Below are positions 13,827-30,428 of a stretch of DNA of 30,428 nucleotides, piece after piece. The stretch comes from a virus, in the IMG/VR virus record IMGVR_UViG_3300027833_000163, positions 1-30,428 of that record; one strand, given 5' to 3'. Both the position numbers and the translations under genes were made by a program. The notes below the pieces were generated by a model that was not told the DNA's origin, ran no database searches, and worked only from the letters and a program-made list of their open reading frames with translations. Position 1 is the first letter of the stretch, and each line of letters opens with the position of its first letter.

Positions 13827-14558
13827 ATGATACCAGTAGATAGTTTATTGTACAAAATAGACCAAAAACTAAATAAACTATCAACTAACGAGCATCAACA
13901 AATTCAATTAGAAGACAAAATCTTAGCTTTGAATGAAGCTCAGATTAAGTTGATAAAACAAAAAGTTGATGGTTTTAGTGTTGCTAACCGATTAGGTTAT
14001 GATGCTTTTAAAAAAAGGTATGAAGATTTACAAAATTTAGTTATAGATTTTACTAATCAACCATTACCGTTAGTGGAAACTAACAAAGAATTACATCAAT
14101 GGGATGCTGACCTAACTGTACTAAAACCTAAATATATGTTTTATGTAGACAGTTATGTTTTAGCAAATAAAGGTAGATGTAAAGATCGTAAGATATGGAT
14201 TAACCAGGACTTAAGTAAGCACGGAGATTTATCTGTGTTACTTAATAATGATCACTACAAGCCAAGCTTTGAGTATCAAGAAACTTTAAACGCTATATCT
14301 TCTAACTCCATGAGTATATATACTGATGGTACATTTACTCCCAATGATATTTACATAATGTATATGAGATATCCTGTCTATATTAACAAGGTGGGTTATA
14401 TCATGATGGATGGTACACCATCAACTAATCAAAACTGTGAGCTTGAACTATATTTAGAAGATGAACTTCTAGATTTAACTGTTCAAAATCTTGCAATGTA
14501 CACAGAAAACAGTGCAGCCGTACAAAGCGCACAGTTTAGAATACAAACAAATGAATAA
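13827..14558 (+). CDS. Putative structural protein (243 aa)
   Basis: Starts 28 nt after the previous stop with an A/T-rich leader. Residues 1-45 form a coiled coil (NKLSTNEHQQIQLEDKILALNEAQIKLIKQK). The rest is mixed alpha/beta with many aromatic residues (PKYMFYVDSYVLANK, DIYIMYMRYPVYINKVGYI), and it ends in a helical region (CELELYLEDELLDLTVQNLAMYTEN). It resembles head-completion or adaptor-type proteins in layout, with an N-terminal helix and a beta-rich centre, but I do not recognise a family. Co-directional with and between two structural genes, so a virion role is the best inference. Confidence 0.72.
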   Translation: MIPVDSLLYKIDQKLNKLSTNEHQQIQLEDKILALNEAQIKLIKQKVDGFSVANRLGYDAFKKRYEDLQNLVIDFTNQPLPLVETNKELHQWDADLTVLKPKYMFYVDSYVLANKGRCKDRKIWINQDLSKHGDLSVLLNNDHYKPSFEYQETLNAISSNSMSIYTDGTFTPNDIYIMYMRYPVYINKVGYIMMDGTPSTNQNCELELYLEDELLDLTVQNLAMYTENSAAVQSAQFRIQTNE

Positions 14559-16511: not shown

Positions 16512-19394
16512 ATGTTAACACCTAGATTAACAAATTGTCAGGATTGTCACAAGATTCCTGATTTACTTAAGAGTATAGATTGTAAGCTTGCAGAGCTTGG
16601 CAATAACATGTATAACAATGTTGTATTTATGTTAGGTCGTGATGTACCTGCTTACACGATTACTCAGTTGATAGCGTATAAACGTATATTAACATTTAAG
16701 TATTGTAATCCTAATTATGCAGGATCAGTTTGTGTTAATGATATTGCTGGTAAAGTAATTAGATTAACATCTGGTTGTGTTAGTAGATGTAACGAACCTA
16801 CAGTGTGTGAAATCACTACATGTTGTGTAACTGTGGTACCAAACCCAAGTACAACAACAACAAGTACATCGAGTACAAGTACAAGTACAACTACAAGTAC
16901 AAGTACATCTAGTACTACAACTACTACAACTTCAATCTTCCCAGATTGTAGAGTGGAAGGATGTTTTGAATTAGTATCTACCTATGAATTAAGCTGTGTT
17001 ATGTACTCTAATAGTAGTCAAGATTTTATATACAATGTGAGTAATAATACTACCACTGCAGTTATACTTAACAATAATGAGTATGGAGATTTCTTTGCAA
17101 ATGCCCACACTAACACAAGGTTGTGGAAGGGTGACATGTATACAGAAATTGTAGAGTGGATTCCTTCAGCTGTAGAAAATGTACTTACTAGAAATAGAAC
17201 TATAGTATTTAAAGATGATGCACTTGGAGGTACTGGACCAACTCAATCTACTCGCTGGGTACATTTAGCTCCAGTATCAAATAATTTTTTACTAACGACT
17301 GTATCATTCAGTTCACAAACTGCTGATTTAGTTTCCTTAAATATAACTGATGATATTGTAGATTCTAATGATGTTGCTTTAGTATTTTCATTTGATTTAT
17401 TTTCTAAATGTTTAATGTACACATTAGATAATAAAATAATAACTGTAATTAATTCAAATGGATCTTCTACTGGAGATTCTATACTAAAACAATACTCATA
17501 TCCAGATGGTGCACTAGAAGTTAGTCAAGTGTTATCAGAGATAGATCCAAATTCTCAAGTAAATTTATTCCAAGATGGGGGTAAATTATACTTATCAGAA
17601 GAAGGAGGAGGTTCATTTGTTGCAGAAGATAAAGTGTATGAAGTTAATTTAACTACATATGCATTAACTTTAGTATGGGACAATGGGCTTGATTATGTAA
17701 TACAACCATTCCATTCTTCATTACAATGTAACGTTAACTCTTTAGGTACCCCTCAGACTACAACTACAACAACAACATCTGATAGTTTAGTTGGATGCTT
17801 GCAGTTTAATTATGCAAGTGGTATGATACAGCAAGTTGTATGGCGTGGTCCTGGAGGTGCACCAATTCCAACTGTTGGTCAAGAATCATTAAAGGTGTCA
17901 AAGTTTGTTGAATTTGCAGGCCCATCTGTTAATACTACAGGTTATACAAATTGGACTCAAGTTCCAGATGTTCCTTATAGTGTAGTATTTAATATAGGAG
18001 GAGTAGATTATCCAATGACATATAGACTAGAGAGTGGTGGTATCGGTTTTACTGATGTTAATCATGGTTATTTTCATACAAATGCTGGAACGTTAGATAC
18101 CCAAAAAGCTTTCCAATTTTCAAAAATAAATCAAGAAGGTGTTGATAATTCAGCAATACTTTCAGTTTTTGATGAGGCAGCTGGTGATTCAGTTTTAGTT
18201 ACTGCAGCAGGAGACTGTGGTCCTGTTGATCCAGATATACCAGTTACAGGGAACTCATACTTTACTTTCTGGAGTGATACTTCAGGTTCTATGGATGATA
18301 CAATAGCAGTGACAGCACAGATAGCTAGTGTTACAGGTGTAAAATCTACAGTCTCAGGAACTCAATCAGTAGGGCAAGAGAAGATTAGTTTAGCTTCATC
18401 TACTAATGCAAATATTAGAGTTACTGAACAGCAAGGTGGTGTCGGTGATACAGCAAGTAAAGCATTTTTATGTATTGTAGATGGTATGGAAGCTATACAC
18501 CCTTCAATACCTTCAGGAACTTTTGTTGAATTTTCAGGATTTGATCCTTCTACTAATCAACCTACTTTTGATCTTTTGGATAGTGGTGGAATCTCTGTTG
18601 CATTAACTGCAGACATTGGACCTAGTGGTGTTGTTACTTTTAATCTAACAGATGCTCAGAAATCTGCTGATTATGTAAACACATCTAATTTAAGAAACTT
18701 ACTTCAAGATTTCTATGCAACAGGAGGAACTGAAGCAAGTGGAAATACAGACAGAGCTACTAACGGTAGTGATGAGTTTGAAGCTCGTGTGTACTGGTGT
18801 CATAGTGGTGAAGAAAGACAAATTTCAATGCTTTCAAATAAAGGCTTAGGAGGCACTATAGATGGAGCAGGATATTTCCCTAATGCAGATAATATAGTAA
18901 TTATGGCCTTTGGTGATGAATCAGGAATAGGATATAATATGGATGGAGACTTTCCAGCAGCAGGGAATTCATGGAAAAATAGAGATGTTCTTACAAATGC
19001 AAGAATAAAAGAGGACATACAAAATGTAAGAAATTTTGTTGAGGATATAGAAACTGCAGCAGGAAACACTGATATATATAGAGCTAAGTTTTTCCATCCA
19101 AAAGCTACATCTAGTTACACTTTCTCAACAATAAAGCCTCTAGTTTCACCTACTGGACTTCTTAATGCAGGAATTAATGGTGCAGATGTCCTTACAAGTT
19201 ATAATGCAGGACAACCTGCACAACCTGCTAGCAAACCTGCTAGTGCTTATAGTATTACATTACAAAACTTTCCAAGCACAAGTCCTGCAAGATTTGCATG
19301 GTCAGCGGATCTAAATAATAGTCCTGCTAACCCACAACAATACTGGTATGATGAAATAAGAAATGCATTAATAGCCTTTGGGTATGGAGTTTAG
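16512..19394 (+). CDS. Giant stalked surface protein with VWA-like domain (960 aa)
   Basis: Multi-domain protein. Residues 1-110 are a Cys-rich helical/beta anchor (NCQDCHKIPDLLKSIDCKLA, CVSRCNEPTVCEI). Residues 113-141 are a pure Thr/Ser stalk. Residues about 142-410 are beta-rich with repeating strand patterns like a beta-propeller (FIYNVSNNTTTAVILNNNE). A second Thr run (about 416-422) leads to a beta domain. From about 585 a VWA-like segment begins with the MIDAS motif D589-T-S-G-S593 (SDTSGSMDD), GGTEASG (T740) and FGDES (D802). The spacing from first to third motif is longer than in typical VWA domains, so an insertion is likely. It probably sits on the particle surface and binds host surface material through a metal-dependent adhesion site. 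Role inferred, not shown. Confidence 0.72.
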   Translation: MLTPRLTNCQDCHKIPDLLKSIDCKLAELGNNMYNNVVFMLGRDVPAYTITQLIAYKRILTFKYCNPNYAGSVCVNDIAGKVIRLTSGCVSRCNEPTVCEITTCCVTVVPNPSTTTTSTSSTSTSTTTSTSTSSTTTTTTSIFPDCRVEGCFELVSTYELSCVMYSNSSQDFIYNVSNNTTTAVILNNNEYGDFFANAHTNTRLWKGDMYTEIVEWIPSAVENVLTRNRTIVFKDDALGGTGPTQSTRWVHLAPVSNNFLLTTVSFSSQTADLVSLNITDDIVDSNDVALVFSFDLFSKCLMYTLDNKIITVINSNGSSTGDSILKQYSYPDGALEVSQVLSEIDPNSQVNLFQDGGKLYLSEEGGGSFVAEDKVYEVNLTTYALTLVWDNGLDYVIQPFHSSLQCNVNSLGTPQTTTTTTTSDSLVGCLQFNYASGMIQQVVWRGPGGAPIPTVGQESLKVSKFVEFAGPSVNTTGYTNWTQVPDVPYSVVFNIGGVDYPMTYRLESGGIGFTDVNHGYFHTNAGTLDTQKAFQFSKINQEGVDNSAILSVFDEAAGDSVLVTAAGDCGPVDPDIPVTGNSYFTFWSDTSGSMDDTIAVTAQIASVTGVKSTVSGTQSVGQEKISLASSTNANIRVTEQQGGVGDTASKAFLCIVDGMEAIHPSIPSGTFVEFSGFDPSTNQPTFDLLDSGGISVALTADIGPSGVVTFNLTDAQKSADYVNTSNLRNLLQDFYATGGTEASGNTDRATNGSDEFEARVYWCHSGEERQISMLSNKGLGGTIDGAGYFPNADNIVIMAFGDESGIGYNMDGDFPAAGNSWKNRDVLTNARIKEDIQNVRNFVEDIETAAGNTDIYRAKFFHPKATSSYTFSTIKPLVSPTGLLNAGINGADVLTSYNAGQPAQPASKPASAYSITLQNFPSTSPARFAWSADLNNSPANPQQYWYDEIRNALIAFGYGV
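16848..16934 (+). repeat. Low-complexity Thr/Ser linker DNA
   Basis: Twenty-nine consecutive codons of ACA/ACT/AGT/TCA/TCT/TCG type encode an uninterrupted Thr/Ser stalk at residues 113-141 of the 960-aa protein. Trinucleotide and hexanucleotide sub-repeats (AGTACA) recur. Such tracts can slip or recombine with similar tracts in neighbouring genes. Confidence 0.85.
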
Positions 19395-19418: not shown

Positions 19419-22310
19419 ATGACAATAATAATAACATTAAGTTTTGCAGGTAATGAAACAGGTCCTTTTGACCTATATTCTGACGCAACTAATTTTGCTA
19501 CACCGTTTGCACAAGGCATATCTAAAGCAGCTTTATTAGCTGGATTTCAGGTTAATGCACCTGCAGGAACTACTGTTGTTAGATTGGATGACTTAAGTGG
19601 TCTTTGTTTAAATACTGAAACAGATATTTATACTTGTGCTACACCAAATTGTGATTTTGCTGGAGAGATACTTTGTAATATTACAACAACAACTACTACC
19701 ACACCTCCTCCTACAACAACCACTACGACTAGTTACTTCCCAGATCCATTTGGTATACCGTGTTTATGGTCTACTGATGGTGGTAATTCAGGAAGTGTAG
19801 CTGTATATAACTTTAATACTAACACAAGTACAACTGTATTAGTTCCCAATGACTTTACTGAGACAGTGGGTATTGAAAGACCTATTTGTGCTACAGAAGA
19901 TAAACTATGGTTAGCTAGTATAGTTGATCAAGGTTCTAATCCAACAAATGATAATGATGATAAGGTATACATTAGAGAGTGGAACATAGATGGAACTACA
20001 CCAAATGCTCCTACATTAACTTATGTAAGAGAGATAACAGTTCCTATGGGACAGACTTATGCACATAATCTGGGAGGAACTTCTGTATGGGCTATGACTG
20101 CAATAGATAATAATACACTTATTGTTGGAACAGGTAATAAATATGCTCCAGCACCATCAGAAGGTACTGGTGGTAATGGTTCAATGTATCTTTCTGAATT
20201 TAGTATTGCAGCTGTAGGAAACATTACAATTTCCTCAAATGATATATCTTCTAAGTGGGCAGCTACTGGAGTAAGCAATGCAAGTAAGTTGAGTAATCTT
20301 ACTTATACAAATTCAGGACAACTTATATTAGGATATAGAGTTGATCTTACTCCTAGTGGAGGGGGTCAGCAATATGCAGTAGGTAATTATTTAGTCGTAT
20401 TCCCTGTAACTCCATCTAGTCCTGAATTTAGTATAAACAATCAGGTTATACCTAAAATATTACTTCAAGATTATGGATTGCCAGAATTTTCAGAAAGTTA
20501 TAATGGAGCTAAAGGTGTACCTTTCTGGGGTGTAAATGGATTAGCACAAATTTTACAACCAGAAACTTTAGAGGTATACACAGTAAATCAATCAATTCCT
20601 AACAACTTAACATCCAATACTTTTGTAAATAGTTCAAATGACTGGTTAAGTTCAGCTACAAACTGTTCTAACATTAGTTTTATATCAGGTGATCCTGACC
20701 CTAATTGTGGTCTTACTTATTTCCCTAACCTATTTGATGGTTTGTATGATAGTTCTAATAATAATTACCTAGGGCCTCAGACATTTACTTACTTTGGAAT
20801 GACGTGTACAGCAAGTTTATCTAATGACTTAGGTGCTTGGTTTGTAAGCAATACAGATGGTGGTTTCTTAGGATGTAGTGGACTTAGAGCACCTGATTCT
20901 GAGGGAGAAGATGTACTTTTAGCTGTTCAAGGTTTTGACTTTAGTATTACAATTGATTTCCCTGTAGCAGTTAATGATATTCCAATTAGAGCTAGTGTTC
21001 TAAATAGTAATGCAATTGGTACATCTGGAGATGTATATTATGTAGAAACTAATGGTGGAACTCCAACACTTTCTATAAATGACGGATGTTTAGTTCAAGT
21101 TGATGGTAATAAACTATGGGGTGGGATGGTAAATCCTAATTTGCCTGGTAATCCTGTTACAAACAATTCTGGGGATGGGGAGTTTAAAGTTACTAGTCTT
21201 GCTAACTATACATCTATGACTATATATGGTAATGCACCAACTGGTGGAAAATTATTTTTAGGATGTCGTCCTTTAAATTGCTATAATATGGTATACATAA
21301 CCTATGGAGGATTGACTTGTTCTGATCCTGAAGAAGCAGGACGTTGTGTAGCTCCACCAAATGTTCCAGTAGCACAGACTTCTTATCAGCCAATTAAGGT
21401 ATGGAATAGAACAACAGGTACAATTACAGAAGTAGGACCTCCACCAGGTGAAGGTTTTGCTTCTGGCGATATTGGTATAGGTAATAATATACTTGTAGTA
21501 TCAGCTAACTTTAACTATCAAAATCCAGCAGCACCTCCTACAGATCAGTGTTTTATAAAATATAATTATGTTAATGAAGCTGAGGTTCCTACCAATTTAG
21601 AATGGGATGAGGTAAGATATGTATTACCTCCTGTCTGGGATCAGTTCAATAACGGTTTTATTCCAAACATTGAAGTAATAAATGATAACACAATAGGTTT
21701 AACTGTAAGTACAACAAGTGGTGGTTTTGATCCTTTATATGATACTAGATTCCTAGAGTGTACGTTCCCTGAAAATGGTACAGAAATGATTACTGTAGAA
21801 AAGTTTGCACTTGCTGGAGCAGGTGTTAACAATGCTGGTAATGCATCAGATTTACTAATTACATATAAAGAAGATGGTGTAACACCAAATAAAGTAATAA
21901 TTGTAGGGTGGATAGATCCCTACGTTGATAATAATTTTATAACTGGTCATCTTGCAGTTCAACAATATGATTATGAAACAGGAGTTTTAGAGGTAAGTAC
22001 AAGAGCTGAAGACTTTGGGGTTCAGATTGCAGGAGCAGCAGCTATTGCTTTATTTAACGGAAAACTTTATGTAGGTGGTTCTAGATGGGCTACAGTAGAT
22101 CTAGAGCCTCCATATGCATGGACTGACTTAGTACCTAATGCTCCTGGTACACCTGATCCAGCTGGTGGAGCAAGTCAAATACCTGGATGTAGAATAAGTG
22201 ATGGATTTATTGATCCTAGTATAACAACCACAACAACTAGTAGTACTACTCCTAACCCATCAGGACCTAAGACAATTTGGACATGGTTTGAATCAGAAAT
22301 AAATCAATAA
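19419..22310 (+). CDS. Giant stalked surface protein, docking domain plus propellers (963 aa)
   Basis: Residues 1-72 are one copy of the cassette's recurring small domain (GPFDLYSDATNF, PFAQGISKAALLAGF, VVRL). A Thr/Pro stalk follows at residues 89-104. Residues about 107-390 carry strand-turn repeats resembling a beta-propeller (VAVYNFNTNTSTTVLVPND, KVYIREWNIDG, SMYLSEFSI). A middle domain (about 400-640) contains paired cysteines. A second propeller-like part (about 645-930) has IKVWNRTTGTITEVG, HLAVQQYDYETGVLEVSTR and GKLYVGGSRWATVDL. The C-terminus has a second Thr/Ser run and an aromatic end (TIWTWFESE). Likely a surface-exposed adhesin or receptor-binding accessory protein. The first propeller region looks related to that of the 960-aa protein (both start FPD after the stalk). 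Fold assignment is by strand pattern only. Confidence 0.7.
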   Translation: MTIIITLSFAGNETGPFDLYSDATNFATPFAQGISKAALLAGFQVNAPAGTTVVRLDDLSGLCLNTETDIYTCATPNCDFAGEILCNITTTTTTTPPPTTTTTTSYFPDPFGIPCLWSTDGGNSGSVAVYNFNTNTSTTVLVPNDFTETVGIERPICATEDKLWLASIVDQGSNPTNDNDDKVYIREWNIDGTTPNAPTLTYVREITVPMGQTYAHNLGGTSVWAMTAIDNNTLIVGTGNKYAPAPSEGTGGNGSMYLSEFSIAAVGNITISSNDISSKWAATGVSNASKLSNLTYTNSGQLILGYRVDLTPSGGGQQYAVGNYLVVFPVTPSSPEFSINNQVIPKILLQDYGLPEFSESYNGAKGVPFWGVNGLAQILQPETLEVYTVNQSIPNNLTSNTFVNSSNDWLSSATNCSNISFISGDPDPNCGLTYFPNLFDGLYDSSNNNYLGPQTFTYFGMTCTASLSNDLGAWFVSNTDGGFLGCSGLRAPDSEGEDVLLAVQGFDFSITIDFPVAVNDIPIRASVLNSNAIGTSGDVYYVETNGGTPTLSINDGCLVQVDGNKLWGGMVNPNLPGNPVTNNSGDGEFKVTSLANYTSMTIYGNAPTGGKLFLGCRPLNCYNMVYITYGGLTCSDPEEAGRCVAPPNVPVAQTSYQPIKVWNRTTGTITEVGPPPGEGFASGDIGIGNNILVVSANFNYQNPAAPPTDQCFIKYNYVNEAEVPTNLEWDEVRYVLPPVWDQFNNGFIPNIEVINDNTIGLTVSTTSGGFDPLYDTRFLECTFPENGTEMITVEKFALAGAGVNNAGNASDLLITYKEDGVTPNKVIIVGWIDPYVDNNFITGHLAVQQYDYETGVLEVSTRAEDFGVQIAGAAAIALFNGKLYVGGSRWATVDLEPPYAWTDLVPNAPGTPDPAGGASQIPGCRISDGFIDPSITTTTTSSTTPNPSGPKTIWTWFESEINQ
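19683..19730 (+). repeat. Thr/Pro linker DNA
   Basis: Sixteen codons (ACA/ACT/ACC with three CCT codons) encode the stalk TTTTTTTPPPTTTTTT at residues 89-104 of the 963-aa protein, placed between the recurring docking domain and the first propeller-like domain. Confidence 0.85.
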
Positions 22311-22313
22311 AAT

Positions 22314-23705
22314 ATGAAACTAACAAAAGAAATAAAAGATAAAATAGATGATGTAGCAAAAACCTTTGCAAAAGGTAACACTACTATTGTTTCTGTTGGA
22401 CTAGGTCAAAAGGTTTCTGCTGGTAAAGTTACAGGAGATTCTGCTATTGTAATTGGAGTTACTGAAAAGAAACCAATTGAAGAGTTATCTTCTGATGAAA
22501 TGATACCAAGTGAAGTTACTGTAGGTGATACAGTTATTAAGATAGATATAATACAACAGTCTCCAGTTCAACTTTTTAGTTGTACAGCTTGTGGAGGGTG
22601 GAATGGATCTAACTCTGGACAATTTACTAACAGACAATTTACTAGACCTCTAAGAGGAGGAGTAACAATGACTTCTATAAACAATACTCCTTCTGTTGGT
22701 ACATTAGGAACATTTGTACAAGATATAGCATCAGGAGCTATAGTAGCACTTACTAATAATCACGTAACTATAGAAAATCCTACATACACAAGCGATAGAA
22801 ACTTAGCTGCCCTTAATGTAGAAAACGATTATGATCCAATAAATAGAATATATCAAGGTACAGAAGCAGTTGGTCAGATTCAACCTGTTAATGAAGTAGG
22901 AATAAGTTTAAGATATGCTCCAATTCACTTAGCTAGTACAGGGTTTGTTAATCAAGTGGATGCTGCAATATATTCTGTAAACTTTCAAGATATTGAGACT
23001 GAAAGTGTACCTTCGTCACAACAATATGCATCATGGCAACCTATAGGTCTTGAAAGTGTAATAACTAATCAAAATCCTCCGTTTGCTACAACAGCTGAGT
23101 TAGATGATATATTTAATACAAATCCAGATGTTTGGTCATCAGGAAGAACTTCAGGAGCTAGAGGTAAAGGAATCTGTGGTTTTCTAAGAGTATATGGAAG
23201 CTCAATAAATTTACCAAATGTAGGTACTGCTCTTGGGCCTGTAGGCTATAATGACATCATTGCTGTAATTCGACCAAGTGATGATGATAGTACATCTCAA
23301 CAACCAGGATGCTTTAACCCAGGTTTGCAAGGAGACTCAGGTTCTGCTGTATATGCTGAATTTGGTAGTGTTAAGAAATTAATAGGCCTACTTTTTGCTG
23401 GTAACTGTATTATAGGAACAATGCCTGTAGCAGACCAAGGTAATGAATGTTGTAGTGGTCAAGTAGGCGTAAATTCATGTAGTACAGTATTTTATCTTTG
23501 TAGAATAGATAGAATTGCTGAACAGCTAGGAGTTGAATGGTGGGATGCTGCAGCTGTAAATCAATATACTGTTAAAAAAGATACTATAGCGTATGTAACA
23601 GAAATTGGAGGAAGTGACCAAAGAACTAAACTCTGTAACGGTAAGTTACATTACCAAGCAGGATTAACTAATACATTAAATAACCCTTGTATACCAACAC
23701 CTTAA
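22314..23705 (+). CDS. Trypsin-like serine protease, NAL1-like architecture (463 aa)
   Basis: Predicted peptidase with an intact catalytic triad. Residues 1-85 form the small alpha/beta N-terminal domain seen before NAL1-type proteases (TTIVSVGLGQKVSAGKVTGD, then VIGVTEKKPIEEL and VIKIDIIQ). The chymotrypsin fold follows with H150 in ALTNNHVTIE, D216 in NQVDAAIYSV and S342 in GLQGDSGSAVYAEFG. Cysteine pairs (SCTACGG near 87, CGFLRVYG, CCSGQVG) may form disulfides or bind metal. No signal peptide or autotransporter part is visible, so it probably leaves the cell only as part of the virion. It starts four bases after the 963-aa protein and precedes the fibre gene. It may cleave host surface proteins or process the neighbouring stalked proteins. 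Triad seen; substrate unknown. Confidence 0.85.
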   Translation: MKLTKEIKDKIDDVAKTFAKGNTTIVSVGLGQKVSAGKVTGDSAIVIGVTEKKPIEELSSDEMIPSEVTVGDTVIKIDIIQQSPVQLFSCTACGGWNGSNSGQFTNRQFTRPLRGGVTMTSINNTPSVGTLGTFVQDIASGAIVALTNNHVTIENPTYTSDRNLAALNVENDYDPINRIYQGTEAVGQIQPVNEVGISLRYAPIHLASTGFVNQVDAAIYSVNFQDIETESVPSSQQYASWQPIGLESVITNQNPPFATTAELDDIFNTNPDVWSSGRTSGARGKGICGFLRVYGSSINLPNVGTALGPVGYNDIIAVIRPSDDDSTSQQPGCFNPGLQGDSGSAVYAEFGSVKKLIGLLFAGNCIIGTMPVADQGNECCSGQVGVNSCSTVFYLCRIDRIAEQLGVEWWDAAAVNQYTVKKDTIAYVTEIGGSDQRTKLCNGKLHYQAGLTNTLNNPCIPTP

Positions 23706-23719
23706 AAATATAAAATATC

Positions 23720-24877
23720 ATGTCAAATAACTGCTCAAATTGCTATAACGGATGTACTGAAGTATCTTCAGACAAATGCGTTAAATATACAGGGGTAGAT
23801 GTCCCTGTCTTAGGAATAAAACATGGAGACTCTCTATCGTTTGTAGAACAATCTCTAATAACTTATTTATCATCAACTCTTGATGGAACAGGAATATTTC
23901 CTGTAATTCCACCAGCAATAATATGTCCAACTGTTGAAAGTAATTTAGATGATTGTAATCCCCTATCTTTAAATAATTATTTAGAGGCTATAATTCAATC
24001 ATTGTGTCAAGTGGAAGCAACTATAGGTGTTATTCAAGAAGACATACCTAGTGAGCCATATATACTAAGATGTCTTAGTGTTCCAGGTATCACTGATGAT
24101 CCTAATGCTACAAGTACAGATACTCAGGCTGTTCTTCAAGCTGTTATAGATTATGTGTGTAATCTACAAACTCAATTAAATAATTTTATCACATATGCAA
24201 ATAATACTTTTGTTGCAATTTCAGATATAAATACGTACATTGAAAACTATTTAAATGGTAACCCACAACAAACTGCAATTAACAACAGAATGGTTCCGTT
24301 TTCTGCTACCCCTTACTTTGGAAGTTTAGGTAATTTTGATGGATCAGGTGCTGGTATAGGTGAATGGGATAGAATATTTTTATGTAATGGTGCTAATGGA
24401 ACTCCAGACCTTAGGGGAAGAGTTGTTGTAGCGTCTACTACTGGAATGCCTGGAGGAGGTGGTCTTGATCCAGCTGTAGTTCCAGTTCTTGGACAAGTTC
24501 CAGAATGGAGTTTAGGTACTACTAGTGGAGATTACAGAGCAACATTAACAACGTCTCAAATACCTCCACATACACATGCTTCAACTGTAACTTCTAGTCT
24601 TTCTCCAGCAAGTCATACTCACAAGATGGTTTCAATGGGTACTGCTAACACTCAAGATCCAGTTCAACCTGACCAACAAGTAAGACAATCTTATTCAACT
24701 GGTGGTAATTTAGGATACGCACTAAGAGGAACATCATCTCCAGCTACAAATGGATTAACGAGTGAAGTTACTCAAACTTTAAATGTTGGTGTATCACTAG
24801 CAGATACAGGTGGTGGACAAGGTCATAGCAACTGGCAACCTGGATATGGAGCATATTATATAATTTACATACCTTAA
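23720..24877 (+). CDS. Tail-collar-domain fibre protein (385 aa)
   Basis: Fibre-like protein. The N-terminus is Cys-rich (NCSNCYNGCTEVSSDKC), then KYTGVDVPVLGIKHGDSLSF, a motif shared with the next gene. Residues 80-190 hold helical heptad segments (LNNYLEAIIQSLCQVEATIG, LQAVIDYVCNLQTQLNNF) that probably trimerise. Residues about 195-385 match a phage tail collar domain: FLCNGANGTPDLRGRVVVA, then LTTSQIPPHTHASTV with a second SHTHK, and GHSNWQPGYGAYYIIYIP at the end. Such domains sit at fibre tips or in collars and bind surface glycans, often with metal held by His pairs. Likely a receptor-binding fibre or head fibre of this phage. The collar domain is well supported; exact location in the particle is unknown. 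Confidence 0.85.
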   Translation: MSNNCSNCYNGCTEVSSDKCVKYTGVDVPVLGIKHGDSLSFVEQSLITYLSSTLDGTGIFPVIPPAIICPTVESNLDDCNPLSLNNYLEAIIQSLCQVEATIGVIQEDIPSEPYILRCLSVPGITDDPNATSTDTQAVLQAVIDYVCNLQTQLNNFITYANNTFVAISDINTYIENYLNGNPQQTAINNRMVPFSATPYFGSLGNFDGSGAGIGEWDRIFLCNGANGTPDLRGRVVVASTTGMPGGGGLDPAVVPVLGQVPEWSLGTTSGDYRATLTTSQIPPHTHASTVTSSLSPASHTHKMVSMGTANTQDPVQPDQQVRQSYSTGGNLGYALRGTSSPATNGLTSEVTQTLNVGVSLADTGGGQGHSNWQPGYGAYYIIYIP

Positions 24878-24888
24878 AATAAAACAAA

Positions 24889-25215
24889 ATGGCATACTTA
24901 CCTGTAAACCCTTGCTGCACTGATGTAGTTCTAAATAGTCCTTGTGGATGTACTTCAAATTGCAACTGCTCATCAAACTCTTGTGGAACAAAAGGTCCTT
25001 TATCAAGCACAGTTGTGTATGATGGACCTACAACTCCATGCACAAATATAGAAGCATGTGACACATTAAATGTTGCATTATCTAAAATTGATCAACTTCT
25101 TTGTGCATTACAAGTTCAACAAGTTACAAATACTCAAGAAATTGCTGCAATGAAAGCACAAATAATTGATATAAATAACCAAATAACAAACATTAACAAT
25201 AACTGCTGTTCATAA
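24889..25215 (+). CDS. Cys-rich short fibre or fibre-associated protein (108 aa)
   Basis: Starts 11 nt after the collar protein. The N-terminal third is cysteine-rich (NPCCTDVVLNSPCGCTSNCN). The segment VVYDGPTTPCTNIEACDTLN resembles the VKYTGVDVPVLGIKHGDSLS part of the preceding fibre protein. The rest is a coiled coil (ALSKIDQLLCALQ, TNTQEIAAMKAQIIDINNQI) ending in CCS. It looks like a short trimeric stalk lacking a tip domain, possibly a cofactor, chaperone or accessory subunit of the collar fibre. The antisense frames here are shadows. Confidence 0.72.
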   Translation: MAYLPVNPCCTDVVLNSPCGCTSNCNCSSNSCGTKGPLSSTVVYDGPTTPCTNIEACDTLNVALSKIDQLLCALQVQQVTNTQEIAAMKAQIIDINNQITNINNNCCS

Positions 25216-25217
25216 TT

Positions 25218-25436
25218 ATGACTGTACTTTTAACATTAACTACTGCAGGCATCAATGCTGATAACTTTGAGTTGTATTCAAATAAAGATAATTTTGATAT
25301 TCCTTTTGAAACAGGTGTGTCTAGAACATTATTATTAAGTGGATACACTAGCTCTGTTGTACCAGATTACTCAACTACAGTGAGAGTTAAAGCTAATGGG
25401 ATGTGCATTAATTACGTAGATATTTTATTACAATAA
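25218..25436 (+). CDS. Stand-alone copy of recurring docking domain (72 aa)
   Basis: The whole product is one copy of the cassette's recurring domain: TLTTAGINADNFELYSNKDN, PFETGVSRTLLLSGYTSS, TTVRVKANGMCINY. The pattern PFE-x6-LLSG-Y and xVRV plus a late Cys matches the copies at 19419, 25459, 26588 and 26822. No signal peptide, stalk or membrane segment. It starts two bases after the previous stop. Probably a small virion surface or adaptor subunit, or a capping copy competing with stalked versions; inferred from paralogy only. Confidence 0.75.
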   Translation: MTVLLTLTTAGINADNFELYSNKDNFDIPFETGVSRTLLLSGYTSSVVPDYSTTVRVKANGMCINYVDILLQ

Positions 25437-25458
25437 AACAAACACAACACTATAAGAT

Positions 25459-26574
25459 ATGTTAATACAAATAACCATAACTATCCCTCCGTCTGGCATT
25501 GCTGGACCATTTGATTTATTTTCAGATGCAGATGGGTATACTTCTCCTTTCGAGACACAAGTACCAGCTACAGAATTAGAGTCTGGTTATGTTGTAGAAC
25601 TTCCTCTAGGTGCAACTATTATTAGAGTTTGCTCTGTAGGTAACTGTGAAAATTGTATTGACATACCAACTAATTGCCCAACTACTACAACAACATCATC
25701 TAGTAGTACAACAACTACAAGTACTAGTAGTACATCTACTACTACATCAACTAGTTCAACAACAACAACTTCTACAACACTTCCTCCTCCTTATAAATTT
25801 GATTGGGTATTACAGACTAATACGCCAACAACTATAGGAACTGTAAATCTTAAACTATTTGTAGACGGACTACCTGTTGTAGATTCTACAATAAGTGTAG
25901 GTAATACTACACAATCTGGTCAATTACTTATTCAAGCTGGAGCTATTGTACAGGCAACTGTGAGTAACTTAAAATCAGGATCTCATGAGTTTGGAAATAA
26001 GATAGCACAAAATGGAGTTCTTTATCAACCAAATGATATATGCAATCCTTGTACTGATGAATTGATAACTCCATTCTTTCAATCTTATGTAATGGAACCA
26101 GCTAATCAACTCTTTGTATTTGATAGTGTAATAGTAGTTCCATCAACAACTACTACTACAAGTTCTTCAAGTACAAGTACAACAACTACATCTAGTACAA
26201 GTAGTACTACTACTACAACCACCACATGTGATTGTAGCTTAAATGGCCTTACTGCAACTTATATAGTACCAGTGACTACAACAACAAGTACTACACCTAG
26301 TAGTGGTACTATTGATCCAGGAGCAATATCTAGTAATACTTCTCCTATAACTAGTGATTGTTCTTTACTTCTAGATTCTACTTGTTATATACAGCATGCA
26401 GCAATAAACAATATTAGTGTAGGTGATAGAATATTTAATGACTCTTTAGGAAATAATCCATTTGTAGGTAATGGACAGTATTATAAAATACAACTTAATA
26501 CAAACTCATCAAGATACAGTGCTAGAGTAGATAGTAATGGATATATACTTTCTAATATAGCATTGTGTTTTTAA
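25459..26574 (+). CDS. Docking domain with two Thr/Ser stalks (371 aa)
   Basis: Residues 1-74 are a copy of the recurring domain (GPFDLFSDADGY, PFETQVPATELESGY, IIRVCSVGNCENC). A 33-residue Thr/Ser stalk (75-107) leads to a beta-sandwich-like domain (about 110-227; YKFDWVLQTNTPTTIGTVNL, GQLLIQAGAIVQATVSNLKSG). A 28-residue stalk (229-256), then CDCSLNGLTATYIVP and a third Thr run follow. A final small domain (about 290-371) has paired cysteines (ITSDCSLLLDSTCYI) and a YYKIQLNTNSSRYSARVDSN segment, typical of short carbohydrate- or protein-binding modules. Bead-on-string layout suggests a flexible surface fibre. No enzymatic motif visible. Confidence 0.75.
   Translation: MLIQITITIPPSGIAGPFDLFSDADGYTSPFETQVPATELESGYVVELPLGATIIRVCSVGNCENCIDIPTNCPTTTTTSSSSTTTTSTSSTSTTTSTSSTTTTSTTLPPPYKFDWVLQTNTPTTIGTVNLKLFVDGLPVVDSTISVGNTTQSGQLLIQAGAIVQATVSNLKSGSHEFGNKIAQNGVLYQPNDICNPCTDELITPFFQSYVMEPANQLFVFDSVIVVPSTTTTTSSSSTSTTTTSSTSSTTTTTTTCDCSLNGLTATYIVPVTTTTSTTPSSGTIDPGAISSNTSPITSDCSLLLDSTCYIQHAAINNISVGDRIFNDSLGNNPFVGNGQYYKIQLNTNSSRYSARVDSNGYILSNIALCF
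25681..25779 (+). repeat. Thr/Ser linker DNA, first tract
   Basis: Thirty-three consecutive Thr or Ser codons (ACA, ACT, AGT, TCT, TCA), the longest stalk in the window, following the docking domain of the 371-aa protein. Sub-motifs AGTACT/AGTAGT/ACAACA recur and are shared with tracts at 16848 and 26143, so homologous exchange between them is possible. Confidence 0.85.
26143..26226 (+). repeat. Thr/Ser linker DNA, second tract
   Basis: Twenty-eight consecutive Thr or Ser codons (residues 229-256 of the 371-aa protein), very similar in codon pattern to the other tracts. It separates the beta-sandwich-like domain from a Cys-containing segment. Confidence 0.85.
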
Positions 26575-26587
26575 ATAAAATAATAAT

Positions 26588-26818
26588 ATGGCAGCAAATG
26601 CAATAATTAGATTAACCTCAGCAGGAGTATGTTCTGGACCTGTGGATATTTATTCAAATGCAGATAGTTTTGTAACACCTTTTGCAACAGGTGTTTCAAT
26701 AGCAATATTGACATCCCCCTTTGGATATCTAACACCTCTTCCTTCTGGAACTACTTCGATTAGGGTTCAAAATTCAAACCTTGCATGTAGTAATTTTGAA
26801 CAAGCAATAATAACATAA
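26588..26818 (+). CDS. Stand-alone copy of recurring docking domain (76 aa)
   Basis: Single-domain product matching the recurring pattern: RLTSAGVCSGPVDIYSNADS, PFATGVSIAILTSPFGYLTP, TTSIRVQNSNLACSNF. It has a slightly longer loop after the second PF motif (TSPFGYLTPLPSG) than the other copies. ATG follows an AATAAAATAATAAT leader identical in type to that of the 188-aa gene. Lies directly before another single-domain copy, a likely tandem duplication with strong divergence. Confidence 0.75.
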   Translation: MAANAIIRLTSAGVCSGPVDIYSNADSFVTPFATGVSIAILTSPFGYLTPLPSGTTSIRVQNSNLACSNFEQAIIT

Positions 26819-26821
26819 AAG

Positions 26822-27046
26822 ATGACAGGAGCAATACAATTTGGAACACTAGGTGTAGATACAGGACCTTTTTACATATACTCAGATGTAAATGAGTTTA
26901 CAGCACCCTTTGAACAAAACATAACTAGAACACAGTTACTATCAGGATACCCAACAGATAAAGTACCTGATGATACAAATATTATTAGAGTAGTATCTTT
27001 TGGAAGTTGTAAAACATCTGTAGAAATAATAGTAGATCCTCAATAA
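26822..27046 (+). CDS. Stand-alone copy of recurring docking domain (74 aa)
   Basis: Last gene of the cassette, three bases after the previous stop. It matches the recurring domain well: GVDTGPFYIYSDVNEF, APFEQNITRTQLLSGYPTD, NIIRVVSFGSCKTSVEI. It ends with a short acidic tail and is followed directly by an intrinsic terminator. Function inferred only from paralogy: a small subunit or docking piece of the surface structures. The antisense frame overlapping the end is a shadow. Confidence 0.75.
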   Translation: MTGAIQFGTLGVDTGPFYIYSDVNEFTAPFEQNITRTQLLSGYPTDKVPDDTNIIRVVSFGSCKTSVEIIVDPQ

Positions 27047-28465: not shown

Positions 28466-29194
28466 ATGGCAACATTGAGAAAATTAGTTTCAGATATAAG
28501 ATCTACACATAAGATCTTATCTACTGATGCGCTTATAACTGATAGAGCAATAGCATCTGAAGTTAGAGTTAACGCATTGACTTTAATTAAAAGAGAAACT
28601 AATATAAGAAAACTCTGGGCCAGTGATACTTTATTTACCACTATTCCTTGTTTGGAAATGGTTGAAGTACCTATATCTGAATGCTGTGAGTTTGCTGATG
28701 AGTGTACAGTTGCAAGAACAAAATATAAACTTCCAAGAATGTCTGAAGGGAATTACCAATATGTAATTCAAGGTGTATATTCTATAAATGCTATGGGAGG
28801 AAAAGGTACTAAATTAAAAGAGATAACAATAAATAGATACTTAAATTTATTAAAGTTACCAATAATTAAAAAGCAAAGTTACTTCTGGATATCTAATGGA
28901 TATATGTATATTAGTAACCCATTGCTAAAGTTAGTAAGAATGGCTGCATTATTTGAAGAAGACATACCTAATGAAATAATGTATCCAGATTGTGATTGTG
29001 GAAGTCCTGAGTATACAGATGAAGAGTATTGTAAGAACCCTTTAGATAAAGAATATGCATTACCAGGGTACTTACAGCAACAAGTGTTAGCTATGACATC
29101 TACAAAACTATTATCTACATACTTTCAAATTAAGACTGATATGAGTAATGAAGGTATAGATGGACAGGCACCAAATGCTCAACCTACGAATTAA
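28466..29194 (+). CDS. Ring or connector-type structural protein (242 aa)
   Basis: Begins three bases after the metallophosphatase stop. The N-terminal helical part (LVSDIRSTHKILSTDALITD, VNALTLIKRETNIRKLW) is followed by a beta-rich centre with cysteine pairs (VPISECCEFADECT, RTKYKLPRMSEGNYQYVIQG). A helical C-terminus follows, with YPDCDCGSPEYTDEEYC and a Gln/Asn-rich end. The conserved-looking core and the position before an IHF-like protein and a gp4-like tail protein fit a ring/connector protein between portal and tail of crAss-like phages. Exact ring number cannot be assigned from sequence alone. Confidence 0.78.
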   Translation: MATLRKLVSDIRSTHKILSTDALITDRAIASEVRVNALTLIKRETNIRKLWASDTLFTTIPCLEMVEVPISECCEFADECTVARTKYKLPRMSEGNYQYVIQGVYSINAMGGKGTKLKEITINRYLNLLKLPIIKKQSYFWISNGYMYISNPLLKLVRMAALFEEDIPNEIMYPDCDCGSPEYTDEEYCKNPLDKEYALPGYLQQQVLAMTSTKLLSTYFQIKTDMSNEGIDGQAPNAQPTN

Positions 29195-29205
29195 AAACTA
29201 TATAG

Positions 29206-29685
29206 ATGTCTAGAGTCTCTGTTGATTGGAGAAGTGCGAGTAAAGATAATTACAATGATTTTTGTAAAAAGAATCCACTTGTAAATTTAAACTTTGATGA
29301 GTGGAGAAATATACTTTATGCATTTAATGACTCTTTTAAACATCACATATTAGAAACAGGTGAAAAAGAAAAACTTCCCTGTGGTTTTGGAGACTTTTCT
29401 ATAAACAAAAAGAAAAGAAGAAAGGTTAAAGGAGTAGGAGGAAAAGAATTTATTAATCTTCCTATTGATTGGCAAAAAACTAAAGAGAAAGGTAAAGTTA
29501 TATACAACTTTAATTATCACACTGAAGGATATTTTTTTGGGTGGTTATGGTTTAAAGAATCTGCAAGATTTAGAAATGCAGATCTTTGGTATTTTAAACC
29601 ATCTAGAGACACATCAAGATTACTCTCCCACTATATAAAGACCGATAAAAAGTACCAACATACATACAACGAATGGAAAAAATAA
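29206..29685 (+). CDS. HU/IHF-like protein of the virion region (159 aa)
   Basis: Residues about 20-75 match an HU/IHF-type domain: helices in LNFDEWRNILYAFNDSFKHHIL, then KLPCGFGDFSINKKKRRKVK, equivalent to the GFG-x-F hairpin followed by a basic arm. The arm is followed by an unusual insertion (FINLPIDWQKTKEKGKVIYN, then FNYHTEGYFFGWLWFKE) and a basic C-terminus. IHF-like genes in the tail/connector region are a known feature of crAss-like phages. It may pack DNA near the portal, serve in ejection or be a structural protein that reuses the fold. A second HU/IHF-like gene is at 3425-3784, far away and divergent. Confidence 0.78.
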   Translation: MSRVSVDWRSASKDNYNDFCKKNPLVNLNFDEWRNILYAFNDSFKHHILETGEKEKLPCGFGDFSINKKKRRKVKGVGGKEFINLPIDWQKTKEKGKVIYNFNYHTEGYFFGWLWFKESARFRNADLWYFKPSRDTSRLLSHYIKTDKKYQHTYNEWKK

Positions 29686-29688
29686 GCT

Positions 29689-30428
29689 ATGTCATACTAT
29701 TATAAATACAATTTCGTCTCACCAGAGCCTCTATATGCAACTGTAAAAGAAGAACTTAAAAGTTACTTTGATACTGGTGCAGTGGATGATTTGTTGTTCC
29801 CTACATATTTAGACAAGTGTTTAAAAAAGTTAGGAAGAACCACTTACGTAATTAGTGAACAAGTTTTGTTTATAGAAGACTTTGAGGCAAGATTACCAGA
29901 TAACTTTCATGCAGTTAGGGAAGCTTGGATGTGTGCATCGATACCAGGTAATCCATACCCTGCAGCTTCTTCTTTTTATTCTCAGGCAGCAAATGCAACA
30001 ACTATTCAAGTATCACCCCTAACAATAGGAGGTACACCTTGTAATAACCCTGAGTGTCAACATCCAAGTTGTGATGGTACGTGTATGCCTGAATTAGTTC
30101 AAGCTGTATACAAAACAAACAATGAAATAGCTAGATCATATAGACATAGCTATTTATTAAAACCAGGAAATATATCTACTAGAAAACAATGTGATGTAAA
30201 TTATAGAAGTGACTGGAACAACTTTGCTCCACCAGTTCGTGAGTTTACTCCTGGATCTGCTTCTTATGATTCGTTTGATATTAGAGATAACAAATTTGTA
30301 ACTAACTTCAGAAACGGTGTAGTGCATTTATTATTTTATGCTACAGAATATGATGATATAGGTAATCAATTAGTTCCTGATAATTATAGTATAGCTGAAT
30401 ATGTAGAAGCATTTATTAAATTTAAAGT
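29689..30428 (+). CDS. Tail tubular/ring protein, P22 gp4-like, truncated by window edge
   Basis: Open at the right end; 246 complete codons visible from ATG at 29689. The N-terminus (SYYYKYNFVSPEPLYATVKE, DFEARLPDNFHAVREAWMC) and the later part (FRNGVVHLLFYATEYDDIG, LVPDNYSIAEYVEAFIKFK) match the style of P22 gp4-like tail stabilisation or tail tubular proteins, whose C-terminal helices face the portal. A Cys-rich loop (CNNPECQHPSCDGTCM) interrupts the beta region and could hold a zinc ion. In crAss-like phages such a protein forms a ring between portal and tail. Complete length unknown. Confidence 0.78.
   Translation, partial: MSYYYKYNFVSPEPLYATVKEELKSYFDTGAVDDLLFPTYLDKCLKKLGRTTYVISEQVLFIEDFEARLPDNFHAVREAWMCASIPGNPYPAASSFYSQAANATTIQVSPLTIGGTPCNNPECQHPSCDGTCMPELVQAVYKTNNEIARSYRHSYLLKPGNISTRKQCDVNYRSDWNNFAPPVREFTPGSASYDSFDIRDNKFVTNFRNGVVHLLFYATEYDDIGNQLVPDNYSIAEYVEAFIKFK

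Follow-up and report, generated by a model that had tools for sequence, protein, structure and literature searches.

A domain of ~67 residues, named DOM here, forms the N-terminus of five genes in a 30,428-nucleotide stretch of viral DNA (the window, a fragment that makes up the whole of record IMGVR_UViG_3300027833_000163), and probably acts as a tail-anchoring module for swappable stalked tips. We give this reading a probability of roughly 60%, the contact with the tail being deduced from protein architecture. Tail anchoring is favoured because in related phages one DOM is built into the tail muzzle, because DOM is conserved in front of tips that have been exchanged, and because the genes lie in a tail context.

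The five copies were proposed by an earlier sequence-only reading, and the list of open reading frames with their translations places all of them where that reading had put them, each as the N-terminus of its frame (Table 1). Two copies are followed by stalks rich in Thr, Ser and Pro and the other three stand alone, again as described. The motif that had been drawn from them holds overall, but copy 1 has LAGF in place of L-x-SG-Y and copy 4 carries a two-residue insertion (TSPFGY). The other window copies are 34–43% identical to copy 1, with G11, S21, P29-F30, L39, G42, P48, R55 and C63 invariant across all five; copy 3 has two additional Cys. With copy 5 as the query, a tblastn search of the window's own record returned only the four other copies (E 3e-13 to 2e-5). 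An independent profile, trained on 26 DOMs of a different lineage and on no window sequence, retrieved exactly the five window DOMs at 66–99 bits (E at most 2e-20). The next-best window frame scored 6.6 bits, and the best score among 20 residue-shuffled versions of all window frames was 8.1 bits.

Table 1. Features of the DOM cluster and its surroundings. Positions are those of the window unless a relative is named.
Feature	Position	Strand	Remarks
Different N-terminal module, then Thr/Ser stalk	16512..16844	+	residues 1-111 of 960-aa ORF 16512-19394
DOM copy 1	19419..19619	+	residues 1-67 of 963-aa ORF 19419-22310
Thr/Pro stalk after DOM copy 1	19683..19733	+	stalk positions measured directly
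Large tip region of 963-aa protein	19734..22310	+	
Second short Thr/Pro run, 963-aa protein	22224-22253	+	
Third N-terminal module	24889..25167	+	residues 1-93 of 108-aa protein, bare in window
DOM copy 2	25218..25418	+	free-standing 72-aa protein, ORF 25218-25436
DOM copy 3	25465..25659	+	residues 3-67 of 371-aa ORF 25459-26574
Thr/Ser stalk after DOM copy 3	25678..25779	+	measured directly
Tip domains of 371-aa protein	25780..26574	+	residues 227-370 match phrog_21885 (unknown function)
Further Thr/Ser runs, 371-aa protein	26140-26226 and 26275-26304	+	
DOM copy 4	26594..26800	+	free-standing 76-aa protein, ORF 26588-26818
DOM copy 5	26822..27022	+	free-standing 74-aa protein, ORF 26822-27046
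Tail ring R2-like gene	28466 (stretch 28466..30426)	+	
IHF-like gene	29206	+	
R1-like ring gene	29689	+	cut by record's end
DOM-muzzleC gene (relatives)	L155 13866-14741		also G001-G009, G011-G014, G016-G023

Within the DOM proteins of the window, the DOM part has no match in Pfam (E 0.1) or PHROG, and no Pfam match to a curated Ig-like family was obtained at E 0.1 for any of these proteins. A profile search of the PDB with DOM returned chance matches only (best E 0.07), and Foldseek of the DOM model against the PDB gave nothing below E 1. No cultured carrier was found when the DOM consensus was compared with isolated phages by tblastn. AlphaFold2, run on 95 aligned DOM copies, predicts a small beta-sandwich (model of copy 5, pLDDT 88.6), replacing an earlier model built from the five window sequences only (pLDDT 75, weak fold matches). 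The structural neighbours of this model are mostly Ig/FN3-type modules, some of them carbohydrate-binding, at Z 6.1 or less, so these matches show a common arrangement only. DOM is predicted to be a beta-sandwich, probably Ig-like. The shared family that the sequence-only reading had proposed is borne out by the profile and by a confident predicted fold; the copies were found neither to lack a common fold nor to occur mainly in non-virion contexts.

The best viral model matches in BFVD were five proteins, all uncharacterised, from a single uncultured virus, NIOZ-UU157 (A0A7S9SU94, A0A7S9XH99, A0A7S9STY0, A0A7S9SU37 and A0A7S9XFL2), with no function recorded. Their lengths, 77, 417, 939, 287 and 77 aa, mirror the DOM protein set, including the ~290-aa member described below. 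No description of DOM, of virus NIOZ-UU157 or of Lbo-JY46 proteins was found in the open-licence literature. The late Cys of DOM is present in 217 of the 222 copies that have a residue at that position, and exactly one Cys occurs in 164 of 228. More speculatively, this residue is a candidate for an inter-chain disulfide; the tail of crAss001 is stabilised by disulfides (PMC10172136).

The placement of DOM within proteins was followed in 147 sequences, comprising 146 related contigs and the window. DOM is N-terminal in 370 of 371 matches and occurs at most once per protein; the sole exception, in a cut ORF, appears to be an artefact of the start codon or frame, not an internal domain. A second set of 124 matches in 93 further loci, some of which overlap the first set, has none beyond residue 45. 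In both sets DOM is absent from C-terminal and internal positions and from tandem arrays. The tails behind it fall into 46 sequence clusters, many preceded by a Thr/Ser/Pro stalk, so that the varied C-terminal domains expected next to DOM in other crAss-like phages are indeed there. The tip region of the 963-aa window protein has 38 homologous tails in relatives (455–1371 aa) and no match in Pfam or PHROG; the whole protein has no tblastn match in isolated phages. Equivalents of copy 2 are 72–93 aa long, some with a Thr stub, and the slot of copy 4 carries ~106-aa tips in two relatives (L025 and L030).

In 309 protein pairs the DOMs are at least 75% identical yet the tips belong to different clusters, and 101 of these pairs reach at least 85%; in the pair L089 and L091 the DOMs are identical and the tips unrelated. 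Since near-identical DOMs (94–100%) precede unrelated C-terminal tips, exchange of tips behind a conserved DOM is evident at the level of sequence. In a tree of window-lineage DOMs, which has few columns and rough support, the copies group by gene position: supported clades unite the 25459 type and, separately, the muzzle copy, the 19419 type comes close to forming a clade, and the other positions make up groups of their own. By this clustering the window-lineage copies are old, slot-specific paralogs. Exchange thus concerns the tips, whereas the slots are old. The term 'interchangeable' in the sequence-only reading fits the tips, which swap behind near-identical DOMs, but not the window-lineage DOMs, which the tree makes position-specific.

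Two further features were seen among stalks and tips. A bead domain of ~50–70 residues lies between Thr stalks, built around YTDC-x-G, followed later by a Cys and closed by an NG-x-C-like end. Profile searching over four rounds gave 152 distinct candidate copies (examples are in L137 5610-7598, L118 8044-9192, L132 6133-7995 and L155 7272-13853, among others). In addition, a 1350-aa DOM protein (L075 10256-14308) has DUF5122 beta-propeller repeats (E 1e-24) among its tips, together with weak leucine-rich-repeat matches.

By its terminase, portal and major head protein, the window belongs among the crAss-like (Crassvirales-like) phages. Its TerL is 39.5% identical to that of Leptolyngbya phage Lbo-JY46, the nearest isolate, and 25–31% identical to those of Cellulophaga and gut crAss-like phages; the portal is phrog_6547 (E 5e-97) and the major head protein phrog_11589 (E 3e-36). 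Among the relatives, crAss-like core genes are present at 142 of 146 loci. The window genes at 13827, 28466 and 29206 match ring or IHF proteins of crAss001, phi14:2, Fpv3 or Lbo-JY46, and 29689 does so less strongly. Past the DOM cluster the order is 27219 (exonuclease or phosphoesterase), 28466, 29206 and 29689, the same as in phi14:2 and, except for the first gene, as in crAss001. Given this agreement, the DOM cluster appears to sit at the expected place of tail appendage genes. A protease-like gene (22314-23705, phrog_20754) also lies inside the appendage cluster; its product has two motifs known from chymotrypsin-fold serine proteases, TNNHV and GDSG, and might process virion proteins.

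The five-copy set is complete for the window but not for its relatives, which have one more copy past the end of the 30,428-base record. A search of 24 large records located this DOM about 10 kb downstream, in a ~290-aa protein. Its ~200 residues outside DOM match the C-termini of Fpv3 gp29 and of a Lbo-JY46 protein of 1654 aa (E 2e-29 for Lbo-JY46, 5e-16 for Fpv3 and 2e-13 for csAssE-Sib). In these three phages the C-terminal domain is unsplit and ends open frames of 1656–2269 aa. The Lbo-JY46 protein comes after the R1-like gene, the place that the muzzle gp44 has in crAss001, and the csAssE-Sib homolog of this protein carries a muzzle annotation. Matches of the muzzle C-terminal domain to crAss001 gp44 (hhalign probability 66%; hmmsearch E 3e-7 in a two-sequence database) and to phi14:2 gp82 are weak but collinear, so the muzzle placement rests on the closer relatives and on gene order. 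A profile of this domain gave chance matches only against the PDB. In the relatives, the split muzzle and the DOM-muzzleC gene come directly after the R2-like, IHF-like and R1-like genes, and this ring, IHF, ring, muzzle order agrees with crAss001 and phi14:2.

DOM and the muzzle C-terminal domain form one gene in all 21 large records that have both. The gene directly upstream (seen in L155, L156, L158/L159, L160 and L161) covers the rest of the Lbo-JY46 muzzle-type protein and, at the split point, continues past the end of homology into Thr stalks and tips. The segment before these ends in ENNF(Y/F)YSG; in the back half, the muzzle sequence picks up again behind DOM with a segment that contains (L/I/V)W-x-HL. 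The Lbo-JY46 stretches that match the two edges are joined by a short loop, and the split point is probably a surface-exposed loop. An assembly error was considered as the origin of the split and rejected, as the split recurs in 21 records and the stop and start codons are visible at the four junctions that were read. No DOM was found in the examined tail-gene stretches of Lbo-JY46, Fpv3, csAssE-Sib, crAss001, phi14:2 or phi17:2. In phi4:1 the muzzle homolog gp42 and several of its neighbours are virion proteins by MS/MS. The split muzzle, which lies outside the window, would be the strongest link of DOM to the virion. The tail-gene context of DOM, which supports the sequence-only reading, includes this fusion as well as the tail gene clusters in which DOM proteins are encoded. 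A DRSGS motif was also seen in Fpv3 gp29 (L152 14700-20585), upstream of the muzzle C-terminal domain.

The four exceptions among the 146 loci, together with later finds, are mainly of two kinds, both without a crAss-like core gene at the locus. One kind is long-tailed, with DOM encoded just upstream of the tape measure. The other has baseplate-wedge genes and reaches 373 kb; here the DOM gene comes directly or nearly directly after a gene for a ~1550–1600-aa protein that itself follows the wedge genes. DOM thus occurs with three tail types: crAss-like, long-tailed and contractile. In DOM proteins of the very large phages (L244 7953-9152 and L249 2214-3428, on contigs of up to 373 kb), a C-terminal stretch resembles a Hint/intein-type domain, with three Pfam models at E 0.0025–0.02, all below the cut-off. 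A first pattern scan of bacterial host genomes found no DOM relative. A second scan found one contig (L258, JACIXZ010000023.1), filed under a Tissierellales MAG; it bears crAss-like capsid, ring and muzzle genes and is therefore a phage fragment, and its DOM was rejected as a bacterial gene.

Two other N-terminal modules of the cluster appear to follow the same plan of anchor, stalk and tip. The module at 16512 has 89 homologs in the collected loci (75–1223 aa), either bare or with stalks and tips. The module at 24889 has 124 (73–2061 aa), is stalked in many relatives and is homologous to a part of phi17:2 gp48; the counterpart of gp48 in phi4:1, gp47, was identified as a virion protein by MS/MS. 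A crAss001 tail-hub identity was tried for 15827 and for the N-terminus of 16512 and was unsupported. At window position 18276 (residue 589 of the 16512-19394 frame) there is a DTSGS motif, as in vWA domains, with no Pfam support.

A conserved N-terminal anchor with an exchangeable C-terminal part is an established principle (PMC6872550, PMC8262889), so 'undescribed', as the sequence-only reading had it, is apt for the domain, for which the Pfam, PHROG and PDB searches were empty, but not for the arrangement. Like DOM, the anchors of receptor-binding proteins (RBPs) of the T7/K1F gp17 type and of Klebsiella phages combine a conserved N-terminal module with an exchanged variable C-terminal part, lie in a tail gene cluster and occasionally occur as truncated, anchor-only proteins. 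Unlike them, DOM has no Pfam match and no sequence homology to a known anchor family in Pfam, PHROG or PDB, and in the window's lineage there are up to six DOM genes per record, one of them fused to a tail core protein. The novelty lies in the DOM family itself, in the presence of several copies in one genome, in the fusion to a split muzzle and in the use of DOM across several tail types.

Further comparisons are offered by crAss001 (PMC10172136). The muzzle gp44 shares with the gene of the extra DOM copy its muzzle-type C-terminal ~200 residues and its gene order. However, gp44 is one chain with no DOM in the examined region, whereas in the window's lineage the muzzle is divided between two genes, the first extended by stalks and tips and the second by DOM. 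The head fibre proteins gp21 and gp29 resemble DOM proteins, on the anchoring reading, in that small N-terminal docking segments carry outer domains. Docking in gp29 is by the N-terminus, and its Ig-like part is the outer, C-terminal domain, whereas DOM proteins have their predicted Ig-like part at the N-terminus; DOM and gp29 gave no sequence match.

Under the tail-anchoring reading, the DOM of each protein would sit at a site on the tail, with the Thr/Ser stalk and tip, where present, projecting from it, and the short proteins that consist of DOM only would occupy sites of this kind without adding a tip. DOM may contact the tail either through another DOM or through a tail protein, a contact to which the nearly invariant Cys may contribute, and the tips presumably bind cell-surface molecules. 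Recombination that swaps tips behind DOM would then alter surface binding while attachment is kept. In the crAss-like lineage the muzzle gene was cut at one loop and one DOM is built into the tail: a stalk and tips were added where the front half now ends, and a DOM where the back half now begins. In a muzzle cut and decorated in this way, DOM would be displayed all around the outside of the assembly, which has six subunits in crAss001.

The breadth of DOM counts against this reading. The anchors of Klebsiella phage RBPs have no similarity between phage groups (PMC6872550); against this group specificity, the presence of one family on three tail types is unusual and unexpected, and could mean that DOM has another role, in folding, assembly or processing. 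One possible answer, which we regard as doubtful, is that DOM is a portable plug and socket: DOMs would bind each other, the split muzzle would form a ring of DOM sockets, and unrelated phages would share one library of stalked tips. Such a device would work on podovirus-like, long non-contractile and contractile tails alike, because the partner of a DOM is another DOM. A module that does not itself attach, but holds fibre chains together, keeps the cut muzzle edge soluble or serves as an assembly checkpoint, would also account for three unrelated tail types more easily, as no tail-specific partner is needed; DOM does lie at the cut edge of the muzzle, and its single conserved Cys could link subunits. 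Free-standing DOM proteins, however, hold nothing to fold or join, and the slot-specific sequences are kept, which suggests specific partners; we consider this role unlikely.

Equally improbable in our estimate is that DOM is an accessory domain whose N-terminal place is incidental and which itself binds glycans of the host, a role that has been suggested for other Ig-like domains of phages. The predicted Ig/FN3-like sandwich, the carbohydrate-binding and FN3 modules among its structural neighbours and the existence of free-standing DOM proteins would suit such a function, but a Z of about 6 or less speaks for a common arrangement only. Moreover, it is DOM that is conserved while the tips vary, DOM is never C-terminal, internal or tandem among the matches, and one copy is built into the muzzle. 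That muzzle copy, present in all 21 covered crAss-like records, might instead suggest that DOM began as a muzzle-specific part whose other copies are duplication by-products with no common role. The other copies are conserved as orthologous groups, and this origin, already disfavoured by the long-tailed and contractile phages that have DOM with no crAss-like core gene at the locus, seems very improbable.

Each RBP anchor known to date is tied to a particular phage group. If the tail-anchoring reading of DOM is true, one small anchor family, found on at least three tail types, in several copies per genome and within a split core tail protein, would account for the way in which environmental crAss-like phages alter their surface while the tail need not be rebuilt. 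The succession of DOM, Thr stalk and tip would also give a sequence handle for candidate host-recognition proteins, and this handle would serve hundreds of uncultured phages whose host-recognition proteins are now unannotated.
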